Below are positions 31,974 to 36,700 of a DNA stretch of 64,000 nt, piece after piece. The notes under the pieces are model-generated. The model did no database searches. It was not told the origin of the DNA and was given only the letters and a program-made list of their open reading frames with translations. The stretch lies in the IMG/VR virus record IMGVR_UViG_3300017991_002758, positions 35,602 to 99,601 of that record. One strand, 5' to 3'. Numbering within the stretch: the stretch's first letter is position 1; every line of letters begins with the position of its first letter. The DNA comes from a virus. The position numbers and the translations under genes are program-made.

Positions 31974-32030
31974 CTGTATAAAAAAAATGTTATTTAGTAA
32001 AAAAATATTTTACAAGGGTTAAAAAATGAG
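31974..32030 (+). promoter_or_regulatory. AT-rich promoter/operator-like element, copy 2
   Basis: Contains CTGTATAAAAAAA (31974-31986), identical to 37748-37760, and a 34-base stretch (31997-32030) matching 29 of 34 bases of the element at 27852. A small inverted repeat AGGTT/AACCT (31963-31975) precedes it. It heads the cluster with the 530-aa protein, ribozyme, AAA+ and VWA genes. Confidence 0.6.
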
Positions 32031-32080
32031 GTAAGAATATATCGTTATGAATTATTATAACAAAACAAAAAACGCAGACG

Positions 32081-32124
32081 GCCGGGACGGAAGCCCGGCA
32101 ACAACCAACGCAGGCCAACCCTGC
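32081..32124 (+). promoter_or_regulatory. Two stem-loops in the leader of the 530-aa gene
   Basis: GCCGGG (32081-32086)/CCCGGC (32094-32099) and GCAGG (32110-32114)/CCTGC (32120-32124) lie between the promoter-like island and the AAAAGGAGACAG RBS of the gene at 32143. Confidence 0.55.
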
Positions 32125-32142
32125 AAGAAAAAGGAGACAGCT

Positions 32143-33735
32143 ATGACAAACCAGACAGAGAACACCAGGCCCGAGAGCAAGACCGACATCGTTGAGATCA
32201 TGATGGCCATCGCCCGAGTGATCTACAAGGACAGCATGGCCCACCCCAAAACCCGGAAGGTGGCCCGGAATTTCCTGAAGCGCAAACGCGATCAGCGCGA
32301 GAGCGTGGCGCCGAAATTTTTGGCCGAGATGATTGAGGCCTACGGCCTGGCGAAAGACGCGACACCGTTTCACCTGATGGCCGCGATAACCAACGAAGAG
32401 CCGAAGCCCGAGCCCAAACCCGCACCGGACCACGAGAAAGCATCGAAAAAGGCGAGAGCAGCCAAGAAAGCCGAGCCGAAGCCGGCCGAAGAGCCCAAGG
32501 CGAAGAAGCAGGCAGAGAAAAAAGCCCAGGCGCCAGCGCCGAAGGCGGAGGAGCCGAAGGCGGAGGAGCCCGGTAGCGACGAGCCGGTTCCGACTTTTTG
32601 CGAGGAGCTGGGCATAACGCCGGCGACGGTGGCCAAACCCCAAGCGACGATCAGAGTGAAGTCCGTTGCCGAAGCCATCGCTCAAGCCGAAGGCAAGCAC
32701 CTTGGAGATCTGTGCGGCTGGTCGATAGCAGGATCGCGACCGAAGGCCCAGGTTGAGGCAGCCGCGCTGAAGCACGGCCTGGTGGACGACCTGGCGCTGC
32801 CGAGGCTCACGCCCAACGCCTGTTACCGAAAAGCGATCAGCGAGGTTTTCAACCGAGGCGGCAAGAACGAGCGCAAGTGGATCGCGGTCCTGGTCGAGGA
32901 CAGCGCCGAGAAGATCGTTCACTCCATTGTGGCGCGCGAAGTTGTGGACGACGAGAACGACGCGGTTTCCAGCAAGGACGCAGCGTTCAAGACCGAGATC
33001 AAGGTCGGCTTCGACAAGGAAGCCTACCGAAACGGCGCCAGCGCCGCCGGCTGTTTCGTGACCGAGGACTTCAGCCACCCGGCCGCGATCAAGTTCAAGG
33101 ACACGTACCTGGAACTGGCGGAAACCTACCTGGCCTACGACATTCGCAACAGCTTTCAGCAGGCCTTCAGGAGCTGGTCGGCCTGTCCGCTGCTCCCCCA
33201 CGGTGGCCTGTGGTACATCCCTTCGGTTTTCGCCGACAAGGTACGCGCCTGGAACGACTTCATGATCGACCTGGGCATGACCACGGTTGTCATCCCGGCG
33301 TTCGACACCAAAGAGACCATCGAGTCCTTGAAGGCCGCCACGCGCAACGGCCTGGAAGCCCAGCTCGCCTCGGTGCTCGAGCTTCTGGATTTCTACTCGC
33401 AACAGGGATGGAGCCGAATACGCACCAACACCTTGGAGACGAGAGTGGCGGAATTCGAGGAGCTGAGAAACAAGGCCGAGCTTTACACCAACATTCTCGG
33501 CACCTTCACCGACGACCTGACCAGCAAGGTTAAAATGGCAGCCGACCGCTTGACCGCGGACATAACGACCCGGCGCGAGCAAGAGGAGCGCGAGGCCAAG
33601 GAGGCCGCCGAGCAGAAGGAGGCCGCGAAGAAGGCAAAAGCCGAGGAGAGGGCCGCAGCTAGGAAGGCCAAGAAAGAGGCCGAGACAGAGACGGACGACG
33701 CCGGCCAGACCGACGGGAAAGCGAGGGTAGCGTAA
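32143..33735 (+). CDS. Large coiled-coil protein linked to AAA+/VWA pair (DUF6744-like?)
   Basis: A 530-residue protein. ATG 32143 is preferred because AAAAGGAG precedes it; the upstream in-frame ATG 32047 would translate the hairpin leader. Residues about 80-150 are a Lys/Glu/Pro/Ala linker. The middle (about 180-400) is globular, with WYIPSVFADKVRAWNDFMIDL and a following VIPAFDTKETIESLKAATRN phrase that I recall from phage proteins of the DUF6744 type. The end (about 440-530) is a very charged coiled coil. It is the first of three genes with the MoxR-like and VWA proteins. A substrate-adaptor role is inference. Confidence 0.6.
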   Translation: MTNQTENTRPESKTDIVEIMMAIARVIYKDSMAHPKTRKVARNFLKRKRDQRESVAPKFLAEMIEAYGLAKDATPFHLMAAITNEEPKPEPKPAPDHEKASKKARAAKKAEPKPAEEPKAKKQAEKKAQAPAPKAEEPKAEEPGSDEPVPTFCEELGITPATVAKPQATIRVKSVAEAIAQAEGKHLGDLCGWSIAGSRPKAQVEAAALKHGLVDDLALPRLTPNACYRKAISEVFNRGGKNERKWIAVLVEDSAEKIVHSIVAREVVDDENDAVSSKDAAFKTEIKVGFDKEAYRNGASAAGCFVTEDFSHPAAIKFKDTYLELAETYLAYDIRNSFQQAFRSWSACPLLPHGGLWYIPSVFADKVRAWNDFMIDLGMTTVVIPAFDTKETIESLKAATRNGLEAQLASVLELLDFYSQQGWSRIRTNTLETRVAEFEELRNKAELYTNILGTFTDDLTSKVKMAADRLTADITTRREQEEREAKEAAEQKEAAKKAKAEERAAARKAKKEAETETDDAGQTDGKARVA

Positions 33736-33792
33736 CCCGCTGATGAGCCCTGGGCACAGGGCGAAACCGGGCTCCGGCCCGGTCCGGGATGC
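33730..33792 (+). ncRNA. Type-I hammerhead self-cleaving ribozyme
   Basis: All conserved elements are present in order. The core is CUGAUGA (33740-33746). Stem II is GCCCUG/CAGGGC (33747-33752, 33757-33762) with loop GGCA. GAAA follows (33763-33766). Stem III is CCGGGC/GCCCGG (33767-33772, 33777-33782) with loop UCCG. U-C (33783-33784) is the expected cleavage site, after C33784. Stem I is CCCG/CGGG (33736-33739, 33785-33788), extendable by GCGU/AUGC (33730-33733, 33789-33792) around an AA bulge. Ends open through stem I, hence type I. The upstream gene's stop codon lies in stem I, so terminating ribosomes could block folding. Confidence 0.92.
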
Positions 33793-33826
33793 AATAAAGC
33801 ACCCATAAAAACAGGAGGCACCCCAG

Positions 33827-35227
33827 ATGACAAAAAAAGAGAAGATGGAAAAAACAATGATGGCGCTGGCCGACGTAGTCGTCAACGAGGAACAGTTTCC
33901 TGCCGTGAAGCTACTCAAGGAGCTTCAGCTCAAGGAGCTGGTCAAGGAGTACGGGAAGGTGACCAAGCGCGATGAGCTGGCCCAGCGCCGGAAGGACGCG
34001 GAGAAGGAGCGCAAGGCGGAGACAGCAAACAGGTTGAAGGCGGCCGAGCAAGTCGCTGACACGGACGCCAAGGGCCTCTCCAAGAGGCTGAGCAAACTGC
34101 GCCGGGAGATGAAGGCGCGCTTCATCGAAAGAGGGCCGCTGGTGGACGGTGCGCTGACCGCTACCATCGCCAACGACCACCTGCTCATGTTGGGCCCTCC
34201 GGGTACCGCGAAAACGGATTTCGCTGAGATGCTCGCCGAGTGCTTGGGCCGAACTTATTTCAGCCACCAGGTGGCGAAGGACACCACACCGGAGGAGATC
34301 CTGGGCATGTTCAGCGCAACGGCCATGATCGAAGAGGATGAGTACAGGCGAAACACCGAAGGCGTCGCACCGCAGATGGAAGTGTGGTTCTTGGATGAGA
34401 TTTTCAAGTCGAGCAGCGCGCTGCTCAACGCCTTCTTGCGCGGCATGGAACAGCGGATAATGAGGAACGGCCCGGAGGTGGTTGAGCTTCCGCTCGAGTC
34501 GGTTTTCGCTGCTTCCAACGAGTACCCGGAGGACAAGGATCTGGACGCACTCTACGACAGGTTCGCGATGAAATTCTGGCTGGACTACATTGGCGACCAG
34601 GATAAGCTCGAAAAGCTTATCGCAAACGGCGCTCCGAAAGTTACCGCGAGATTGAACCGCGAGGATCTGGACGCGCTCCGCATACTCTCGCAACGGGTGG
34701 CCTGGGGCAAAGACGAGGCCTCCATCCTGATGAAGATCAAGCGAGCAGTTGAGGAAGTCGGGTTCATTGCCAGCGACCGAACATGGATAGGCAAGGCGCC
34801 GAAGTTGGTAAAGGCACGCGCCGCAATGAACGGCCGCGATTACATTACCACAAGCGACTGGCTGGTTCTGGTTGATGCCCTCTGGAAAAAGCACACTGAT
34901 CGTCCTGCTCTACTGAAAGCCGTTGGCAACGCAGCGGACCCCTACGGCGCCAGAGCAACAAGCATCATCGACGGCGTGAGGATCGCGATGAGGGAAATGC
35001 CGACGTTGGACGATGTGAAAGCCGGGACGCTCACCAAGGCGGCCGCGATGAAGAAAATGGGCGAGGTCAACGCACAGCTTGCCGGCCGGCGCGACGCCAT
35101 CATGGAGGTTCAGGAAAAGGCAGCGGACAACGAGGCGGTCAAAGAGGCGGTCGAAGCAGTGGACGCGGCATTGAACAAACTGACGGCAGTGGGCCGCGAG
35201 ATCACCATGTACAGGCCGGTGGTTTAG
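33827..35227 (+). CDS. MoxR/CobS-like AAA+ ATPase
   Basis: A 466-residue protein starting behind ACAGGAGGCACC. An N-terminal charged helix (about 1-90) precedes the AAA+ core: Walker A GPPGTAKT at 123-130, Walker B FLDEIF at 188-193, a sensor-like FAASNEYPED and an arginine-rich lid. The NTEGVAPQMEVWFLDEIF arrangement is characteristic of the MoxR/RavA/CobS class, which acts as a hexamer with VWA-domain partners in metal insertion or complex assembly. The VWA partner is the next gene, and the mRNA leader carries the hammerhead ribozyme. The target is unknown. Confidence 0.85.
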   Translation: MTKKEKMEKTMMALADVVVNEEQFPAVKLLKELQLKELVKEYGKVTKRDELAQRRKDAEKERKAETANRLKAAEQVADTDAKGLSKRLSKLRREMKARFIERGPLVDGALTATIANDHLLMLGPPGTAKTDFAEMLAECLGRTYFSHQVAKDTTPEEILGMFSATAMIEEDEYRRNTEGVAPQMEVWFLDEIFKSSSALLNAFLRGMEQRIMRNGPEVVELPLESVFAASNEYPEDKDLDALYDRFAMKFWLDYIGDQDKLEKLIANGAPKVTARLNREDLDALRILSQRVAWGKDEASILMKIKRAVEEVGFIASDRTWIGKAPKLVKARAAMNGRDYITTSDWLVLVDALWKKHTDRPALLKAVGNAADPYGARATSIIDGVRIAMREMPTLDDVKAGTLTKAAAMKKMGEVNAQLAGRRDAIMEVQEKAADNEAVKEAVEAVDAALNKLTAVGREITMYRPVV

Positions 35228-35233
35228 GAGGGC

Positions 35234-36700
35234 ATGATGACTGGACTCATCTACAACGCAAGCGACTTTCAGCGCCATCTCTGGGACGACCATAAGATGG
35301 CTGACGAGGCCGCAGACGGGGCAGAAAAAGTCGCGGCGAAAAGGTACGAGGCGTTCCCGGAATTCGCCGGCGAGATGTTTCACTACTTTCACGCTGAAGA
35401 ACCAGAGACCCTGGAAGAGCCGGCCTCGGGCAGCGAGGTTTTTCAGAAGCTGGACGCAGCCATGAGACAAGTTCCCGAGGTTGAGGATCTTCGGGCCCAG
35501 ACCATTGGCAACGACCGCTGGGCCGGCGTCGTCACCGCAAGCATGATTGATACCTTGCTGCACAAGGTGCCAGCGCCAGATAAAAAGGTAGAGGATGTAC
35601 GAAACGACGAAGACGCCATTGAGTATTTAGAGAGGCTGCTCGAGCAGGCGGAAGAGGACGGCGACAGTGAACAGGCCGCGGGAATTGAAGAGGCGCTCAA
35701 CGAGCTGATAGACGGCCTGGAGGAGAAGCGGGATGCAGCGGAAGCCGCAGCCGACCAGATGGACCCGACCGACGTGAGACAGGCCATTCGCAAAGCGGTT
35801 AAACAGGCGTCCAAGGATATCGAAGACGCACAGGCCATGCTTGACGCTTTTGGCATTGGCACCGATCAGCACTCAGGGCGAAAGGCTCAGATGGCGACCG
35901 GCGCGAAACTGGCCAAGCTTGTTCAGGGCAACGACCGACTCAGGCGCATCGCGGAATTCGCCGGCCGCCTTCGCAGGATCGCAAACGAGGAACAGCGCAA
36001 GAAGCCACGCTTCGGTTGCGGCGAGCGCGTTGGGCGGAAACCCGACAACGATCTGGCCAAGCTCTGCCACCGAGAGCTGATTTACGGAGCCGAGCCCTTG
36101 CGTCACATCTTCGGTATGAAGTACGCCGACCGCTCGCTCGTGTGCGTCGAAAAGGCCGACCGGAAGAAGCAACAGAAAGGTCCGGTGGTCATGGTTCTGG
36201 ACAGTAGCGGATCAATGAGTACCGGCGACGCCGATGTTTGGGCAGCCGCTGTTTGCTTGGCGTACATGGACGTGGCCCGGCAGCAGAACCGCGACTTTGC
36301 GATAGTTCATTTCGGCTCTGCTGTTTTGAGGATCGACAAGTTTGTGGGCAAGGATTCGATGACGCCGGAGGCAATAACCGAGGCGGTCAACTTTTTCGCC
36401 GCCGATGGCGGAACCAATTTTGAGGATAGCCTAATGGCAGCGGTGAAGATAATCCGGGAGACCGGCGAATTCAAGAACGCGGACATCGTGATGGTAACCG
36501 ACGGTTGCGCCAGCGTGAGCAACGCTTGGCTCGATTCGTATGAACAGGCCAAGGCCGAGCTGGACTTCAGTTGCTATTCGGTGCTGGTTGGATCCTACTG
36601 CAAAGGCGAAGTAAACGAGAAGTTCAGCGACGAAGTTGAGCACCTGGCCAATGCGATCAGGGATGAAGAGCAAATGCATCACCTGTTTGGGAAGGTTTGA
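35234..36700 (+). CDS. VWA-domain protein, CobT/ViaA-like
   Basis: A 488-residue protein starting 7 bases after the AAA+ gene. The N-terminal 310 residues are helical and acidic. A von Willebrand A domain follows with an intact MIDAS signature: DSSGS at 323-327 (DxSxS), then TNF and a later MVTDGCASV that provides the Asp. This layout matches the partner of MoxR/CobS-type ATPases (ViaA, CobT). Together with the upstream ATPase it forms a complete two-part machine encoded by the phage. Confidence 0.85.
   Translation: MMTGLIYNASDFQRHLWDDHKMADEAADGAEKVAAKRYEAFPEFAGEMFHYFHAEEPETLEEPASGSEVFQKLDAAMRQVPEVEDLRAQTIGNDRWAGVVTASMIDTLLHKVPAPDKKVEDVRNDEDAIEYLERLLEQAEEDGDSEQAAGIEEALNELIDGLEEKRDAAEAAADQMDPTDVRQAIRKAVKQASKDIEDAQAMLDAFGIGTDQHSGRKAQMATGAKLAKLVQGNDRLRRIAEFAGRLRRIANEEQRKKPRFGCGERVGRKPDNDLAKLCHRELIYGAEPLRHIFGMKYADRSLVCVEKADRKKQQKGPVVMVLDSSGSMSTGDADVWAAAVCLAYMDVARQQNRDFAIVHFGSAVLRIDKFVGKDSMTPEAITEAVNFFAADGGTNFEDSLMAAVKIIRETGEFKNADIVMVTDGCASVSNAWLDSYEQAKAELDFSCYSVLVGSYCKGEVNEKFSDEVEHLANAIRDEEQMHHLFGKV

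Follow-up and report, generated by a model that had tools for sequence, protein, structure and literature searches.

Between two genes of a virus, a short stretch of RNA can be drawn as a self-cleaving ribozyme, raising the question of whether a genuine hammerhead is present there and what cleavage at this position would do to the transcript that carries it. The window, i.e., the whole stretch of DNA analysed (64,000 nt), comprises bases 35602-99601 of the 99.6-kb virus record IMGVR_UViG_3300017991_002758, which was assigned to a tailed phage on the basis of its tail tape measure and DnaB helicase genes. All genes called near the ribozyme are located on the + strand of the window. Gene 1 (32047-33735, +; 562 aa) is an open reading frame with a match to the Pfam domain DUF6744 (E=5e-11) and a charged, coiled-coil-like C-terminus. 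Gene 2 (33827-35227, +; 466 aa) encodes a bpMoxR AAA+ ATPase (Pfam bpMoxR, E=4e-43), and its ATG is preceded at a distance of 8 nt by the Shine-Dalgarno sequence AGGAGG (33813-33818, +). Gene 3 (35234-36700, +; 488 aa) encodes a vWA-domain protein (Pfam VWA_2, E=1.6e-8). 

Gene calls were made with a simple codon-usage caller, chosen over a longest-ORF caller because a spurious reverse-strand reading frame (31990-33918) that spans the ribozyme locus misled the latter. The ribozyme is thus located between the same-strand genes 32047-33735 and 33827-35227, and the 91-nt gap between them, together with the stop codon of gene 1, contains the entire hammerhead. A scan from the end of gene 1 to the start of gene 2 yielded no promoter-like site on the coding strand and no terminator-like site, and we infer that the two genes are co-transcribed.

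Positions 33730-33792 read, part by part, GCGTAA-CCCG, CTGATGA, GCCCTG-GGCA-CAGGGC, GAAA, CCGGGC-TCCG-GCCCGG, TC^CGGG and ATGC, with the predicted cut at the caret. Within this stretch, 33736-33788 (+) forms a complete type I hammerhead with all core residues intact. The UAA stop codon of gene 1 lies directly 5' of stem I, its AA being unpaired in the model, and occupies the same position in most members of the subclass. Stem I consists of 4 bp between CCCG (33736-33739) and CGGG (33785-33788). It is followed by the core segment CUGAUGA (C3-A9, 33740-33746), by stem II (33747-33762; 6 bp, loop GGCA at 33753-33756) and by the second core segment GAAA (G12-A15.1, 33763-33766), both core segments being aligned to the Rfam model RF00163. 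Stem III (33767-33782) has 6 bp plus the A15.1-U16.1 pair and a UCCG loop, and leads into U16.1 and C17 (33783-33784). Hammerhead chemistry provides an established basis for placing cleavage after C17, and the cut is accordingly predicted after C33784, so that the downstream product would begin with CGGG and carry a 5'-OH. The hammerhead as drawn was also the minimum free energy fold: three helices surround the core, of which stem I is open and stems II and III each end in a loop (-35.4 kcal/mol, z -2.7, none of 200 shuffles as good). Sequence and fold therefore confirm the description in the earlier note of a complete type I hammerhead with CUGAUGA, GAAA, A15.1-U16.1, U-C at the cleavage site and 6-bp stems II and III, and the TAA of gene 1 was found where it had been placed, at 33733-33735.

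A covariance-model search, which the earlier note had proposed as a check, gave a match to RF00163 (Hammerhead_1) across the whole model, but its 23.7 bits stayed below the gathering score of 34. The E value was 0.0013 when 301 bases were compared with all families and 1e-4 for the 99.6-kb record. A default scan at the gathering threshold came back blank because of this score. The gathering cutoff is a threshold set by curators and no structural feature, and at 26 loci with phage hammerheads positive for our descriptor (hammerhead core with stems of at least 4/4/4 bp) a single hammerhead passed it. Rfam cutoffs thus miss most phage hammerheads of this kind, which are badly under-annotated as a result. 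When 4669 first-order random windows were scanned, the descriptor matched 15 times (0.003 per 64 kb), and no match had stems that reached 4/6/6 bp, so that the expectation for a chance origin is negligible. In the window, 33736-33788 was the sole full hammerhead found by the descriptor, and neither RF00163 nor RF00008 detected a second ribozyme in the record. With one hammerhead found in a 99.6-kb record that is possibly incomplete, there is no array here. An identical copy occurs in the IMG/VR contig 3300017990_000486. No other copy with these neighbouring genes was found and, being identical, this one is uninformative on conservation in that setting.

Relatives were collected by DNA-pattern searches of IMG/VR, which gave at least 200 phage hammerheads among the matches listed. 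The relatives nearest to the window in structure have in common UAA, a stem I of 4 bp with the sequence CCCR, a stem II of 6-7 bp with a GGCR loop, a stem III whose length varies freely, GUC or GUA ahead of the cleavage site and, past it, YGGG followed by (A/U)-YGC. For the covariation analysis, 28 relatives with a 6-bp stem II were aligned, as variable stem II length misplaces loop II. In this alignment 96.6% of the pair cells were standard, both partners had changed in 10 pairs, and covariation scored 0.461, compared with 0.136 for shuffled and at most 0.082 for slid alignments. Covariation was seen in all three helices: stem I was paired in 28/28 relatives, its core-adjacent pair switching from G-C to A-U, compensatory changes affected five of the six pairs of stem II, and they also occurred in stem III. 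The core was retained while the stems covaried. Such strong compensatory changes indicate selection for a working fold.

Among the type I hammerheads with a GGCR loop (e.g., L049, L066, L172, L186, L206, L207), the UAA-CCCR arrangement with a 4-bp stem I, the loop II, the 3' flank (A/U)-YGC and the closeness of the next start codon are as in the window. Their flanking genes differ from those of the window, and several of these contigs have 3-4 copies around successive genes, whereas the window has a single copy with a stem III longer than in most of them. Another type I family (L154, L160, L194, L203, L210, L227, L246, L258, L260, L266) has a 3-bp CCT stem I, mostly a TGCAAGT loop II and a stem III arm of about 60 nt. 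A planctomycete contig, perhaps a prophage (Gemmata sp. MAG, L287, 4704-4790), also holds a similarly arranged type I hammerhead in which UGA stands just ahead of stem I.

The earlier note had extended stem I by GCGU/AUGC. All four of these pairs were present in just 3/46 relatives, and in the 28 aligned relatives they were broken in 7, 21, 17 and 20 cases from the inside outwards; the extension is therefore no conserved part, and UGC (33790-33792) more probably touches loop II. The alternative pairing of UGC with GCA in loop II (33754-33756) was complete, with 3/3 pairs, in 38/46 relatives, and its pairs alternate between A-U, G-U and G-C among the aligned relatives. Where loop position 4 is A, the flank has U in 9 members and C in none; where it is G, the flank has C in 20 and U in 9; a flanking A leaves a mismatch in 4 members. 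The A/U association has a hypergeometric probability of about 3e-4 with kinship ignored. In the set with a short stem I, 42 of 169 loops had a 4-nt complement in the 3' flank, compared with 20 after shuffling (maximum 32), and pairing of loop II with the 5' flank showed no excess. A putative pseudoknot between loop II and the 3' flank would thus probably provide the tertiary contact for fast cleavage, as judged from these pairing patterns. Variant flanks (AGCATGTTGC) without a simple YGC pseudoknot occur in L193, L209 and L232, in which GCA/TGC could pair locally.

The position of the stop codon was measured for every type I hammerhead among the matches listed for which an upstream gene had been called. 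In a set picked by the letters of stem II only, the stop ended within -15 to +4 of C3 in 52/91 cases, and in a second set, likewise among the matches listed, in 53/94. Random intergenic placement in the same contigs gave a mean of 10.4 and a maximum of 20 of 91 (1000 draws). After grouping by similarity over 300-nt stretches, the layout persisted in 34 of 65 groups. Most commonly the stop exactly abuts stem I, and in a second group the core's own UGA serves as the stop. Downstream start codons concentrate 20-49 nt past the cut; in the window the distance is 42 nt. The layout of the window is hence typical of phage type I hammerheads, and the suggestion that its genomic setting is unusual is not supported, given that most of them have the stop inside stem I or beside it (52/91 against about 10 at random). 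At 29 contig loci among the matches listed, at least three hammerheads lie on one strand, mostly with 0-2 called genes between neighbouring ribozymes. In metagenomic phages (L060, L069, L087, L111, L166, L186, L197 and L207), 3-6 hammerheads on one strand were observed between successive small genes.

In the same sample, the stop codons upstream of type III hammerheads mostly stand off from the ribozyme. The spacer between stop and cut folded better than its shuffles in all 26 cases tested (mean z -3.9, 85% below -2), compared with a mean z of -0.58 and 14% below -2 for 88 control stretches that follow other stop codons of these contigs. The last paired base lies 0-7 nt upstream of the cut. 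A few of the 26 hairpins are weak (two with 4 bp) or paired with the stem III strand. Usually they are strong, examples being L036, L055, L063, L079, L088, L093, L096, L104 and L106. As the body of a type III ribozyme lies downstream of the cut, it is unable to protect the upstream mRNA. With the ribozyme body in type I and the spacer hairpin in type III, the upstream product would end in a stop-proximal hairpin in both types, which, as a correlation at the sequence level, points to a shared purpose of the two layouts, namely a hairpin at the upstream mRNA end after cleavage.

Given the sequence, the fold, the covariation, the same-strand intergenic position and the recurring layout, all observed directly, we favour, with a probability of roughly 0.6, the reading that this cis-cleaving type I hammerhead serves to process a long phage transcript between two of its cistrons. 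Once RNA polymerase had passed 33792, the RNA would fold and be cut between C33784 and C33785. The upstream DUF6744 mRNA would then extend beyond its stop codon by the ribozyme body, which consists of two stable hairpins and ends in a 2',3'-cyclic phosphate, and such a 3' end should, from its structure, hinder 3'-to-5' decay. The downstream MoxR-vWA mRNA would begin with a 5'-OH and a 42-nt leader holding the Shine-Dalgarno sequence. Cleavage in the cell would thereby stabilise the upstream mRNA and allow the two mRNAs separate fates. The proposal of the earlier note that a genuine type I hammerhead separates gene 1 from the MoxR/vWA mRNA is thus well supported as a prediction. Relief of Shine-Dalgarno sequestration by cleavage was considered and rejected, as the change in the partition function was mixed: GG 33817-33818 opens and GG 33814-33815 partly closes.

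In a reading that goes back to the earlier note, a ribosome terminating at UAA 33733-33735 would block the fold, so that the rate at which gene 1 is translated would set how much MoxR mRNA is released. With UAA in its A site, a ribosome shields roughly the next 10 nt, here CCCG and part of CUGAUGA, and the stop exactly abuts stem I, with equal or deeper overlap in most phage type I hammerheads, including those that use the core UGA as the stop. Ribosome-coupled control of the predicted cleavage is therefore geometrically possible. However, close packing accounts equally well for the stop position, UAA also suits a structural preference for A 5' of stem I that is present even where no stop was called, and termination is short relative to the lifetime of an mRNA. 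In addition, type III stops are kept clear behind a hairpin, indicating that ribosome occlusion is no general need. We consider such coupling unlikely and favour packing combined with 3'-end protection, which needs fewer assumptions and also covers the type III layout.

Compact packing by itself, in which a neutral or selfish ribozyme rides along between genes and overlaps the stop because phage genomes are tight, appears rather improbable. It would fit the short intergenic spaces of phages and the lack of relation between the genes that neighbour the ribozyme relatives, which encode a RecE-like exonuclease, an ATPase, DUF6908 and unknowns, and in no case MoxR. It would also fit the survey of MoxR relatives, which included Moorella, Aphanizomenon and Campylobacter phages and 19 IMG/VR loci: in about 20 other phage or viral MoxR neighbourhoods, descriptor and Rfam found no credible hammerhead, the identical copy (L002) aside. 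A link between ribozyme and MoxR was rejected, as there are MoxR loci without a hammerhead and ribozyme relatives without MoxR; the ribozyme is independent of MoxR. Against a mere passenger, the compensatory base changes indicate selection for a working fold, and recurrent hairpins ahead of type III cleavage sites would be unexpected. The descriptor's one match among these loci, weak, long-range and of type II, lies in L023 and was taken as chance; Rfam found no hammerhead at them, and a MoxR protein search of bacterial genomes gave no matches. Neighbouring bpMoxR and vWA genes, preceded by a gene that is DUF6744-like or hypothetical, recur in unrelated phages, Moorella MTATph1 and Aphanizomenon CL131 (window 32047-36700; L004; L005).

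It is very improbable that the locus is a GC-rich pair of hairpins, decay-blocking or terminator-like, that matches the hammerhead core by accident: the Rfam score below gathering and the GC-rich stems would agree with this, but the core is intact and kept in relatives as the stems covary, stems of such length occurred in 0/4669 random windows, and the sequence has no U-tract after the hammerhead. A role in making circular RNA, in ligation or in a mobile RNA element, of the kind known from retrozymes and viroids, is hardly credible. Type I hammerheads do act so in animal retrozymes (PMC7761336), but here the ribozyme occurs once, in a linear coding setting, and neither a repeat unit nor a second ribozyme accompanies it; circles and ligation were sought for prophage arrays without detection (PMC3088659).

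Two regularities emerge over at least 200 phage hammerheads, the type I stop that abuts or overlaps stem I and the hairpin that precedes the type III cut. Together they turn a general idea of processing into a specific, testable one of protected mRNA 3' ends. More tentatively, and short of even odds, phage hammerheads may form a general system for making mRNA 3' ends, with the ribozyme body fused to the stop in type I and a dedicated hairpin in type III, in which termination may gate cleavage of type I.

Hammerheads between prophage genes were described earlier for Agrobacterium, Azorhizobium and Clostridium scindens; tandem copies were proposed to cut polycistronic RNA, cleavage was shown for several, and about 40% of hammerheads are reported to contain pseudoknots (Perreault et al., 2011; PMC3088659). 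What hammerheads do in phages and prokaryotes was still an open question for a 2017 review (PMC6155905), and according to a 2023 paper the reason for bacterial ribozyme gene associations is still unknown (PMC10085705). A literature search, mostly of papers outside subscription, found no report of stop-codon abutment or of the type III spacer hairpin. Prophage intergenic hammerheads, probable cutting of polycistronic RNA and pseudoknots are thus already known; it is the statistics of the layout that merit further work. The window resembles the prophage hammerheads in its position between phage genes; they form arrays, whereas one ribozyme was found in this record, and stop codons go unmentioned for them (PMC3088659), whereas here the upstream stop abuts stem I. 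With Hammerhead_1 (RF00163), the window shares the core, the type I stem order, A15.1-U16.1 and C17, but it scores below the cutoff and has a long, stable stem III. The loop and bulge contacts of animal type I hammerheads appear to be replaced by the putative pseudoknot between loop II and the 3' flank. RAGATH-1-hammerhead (RF03152) has the core in common with the window and gave a weak partial match (19.1 bits against a gathering score of 56.3). The hammerhead-like HHphage element of haloviruses HF1/HF2, 13 nt before a helicase start codon, is likewise located near a phage gene, but it is a structural variant (PMC3088659), whereas the hammerhead of the window has the full consensus core.
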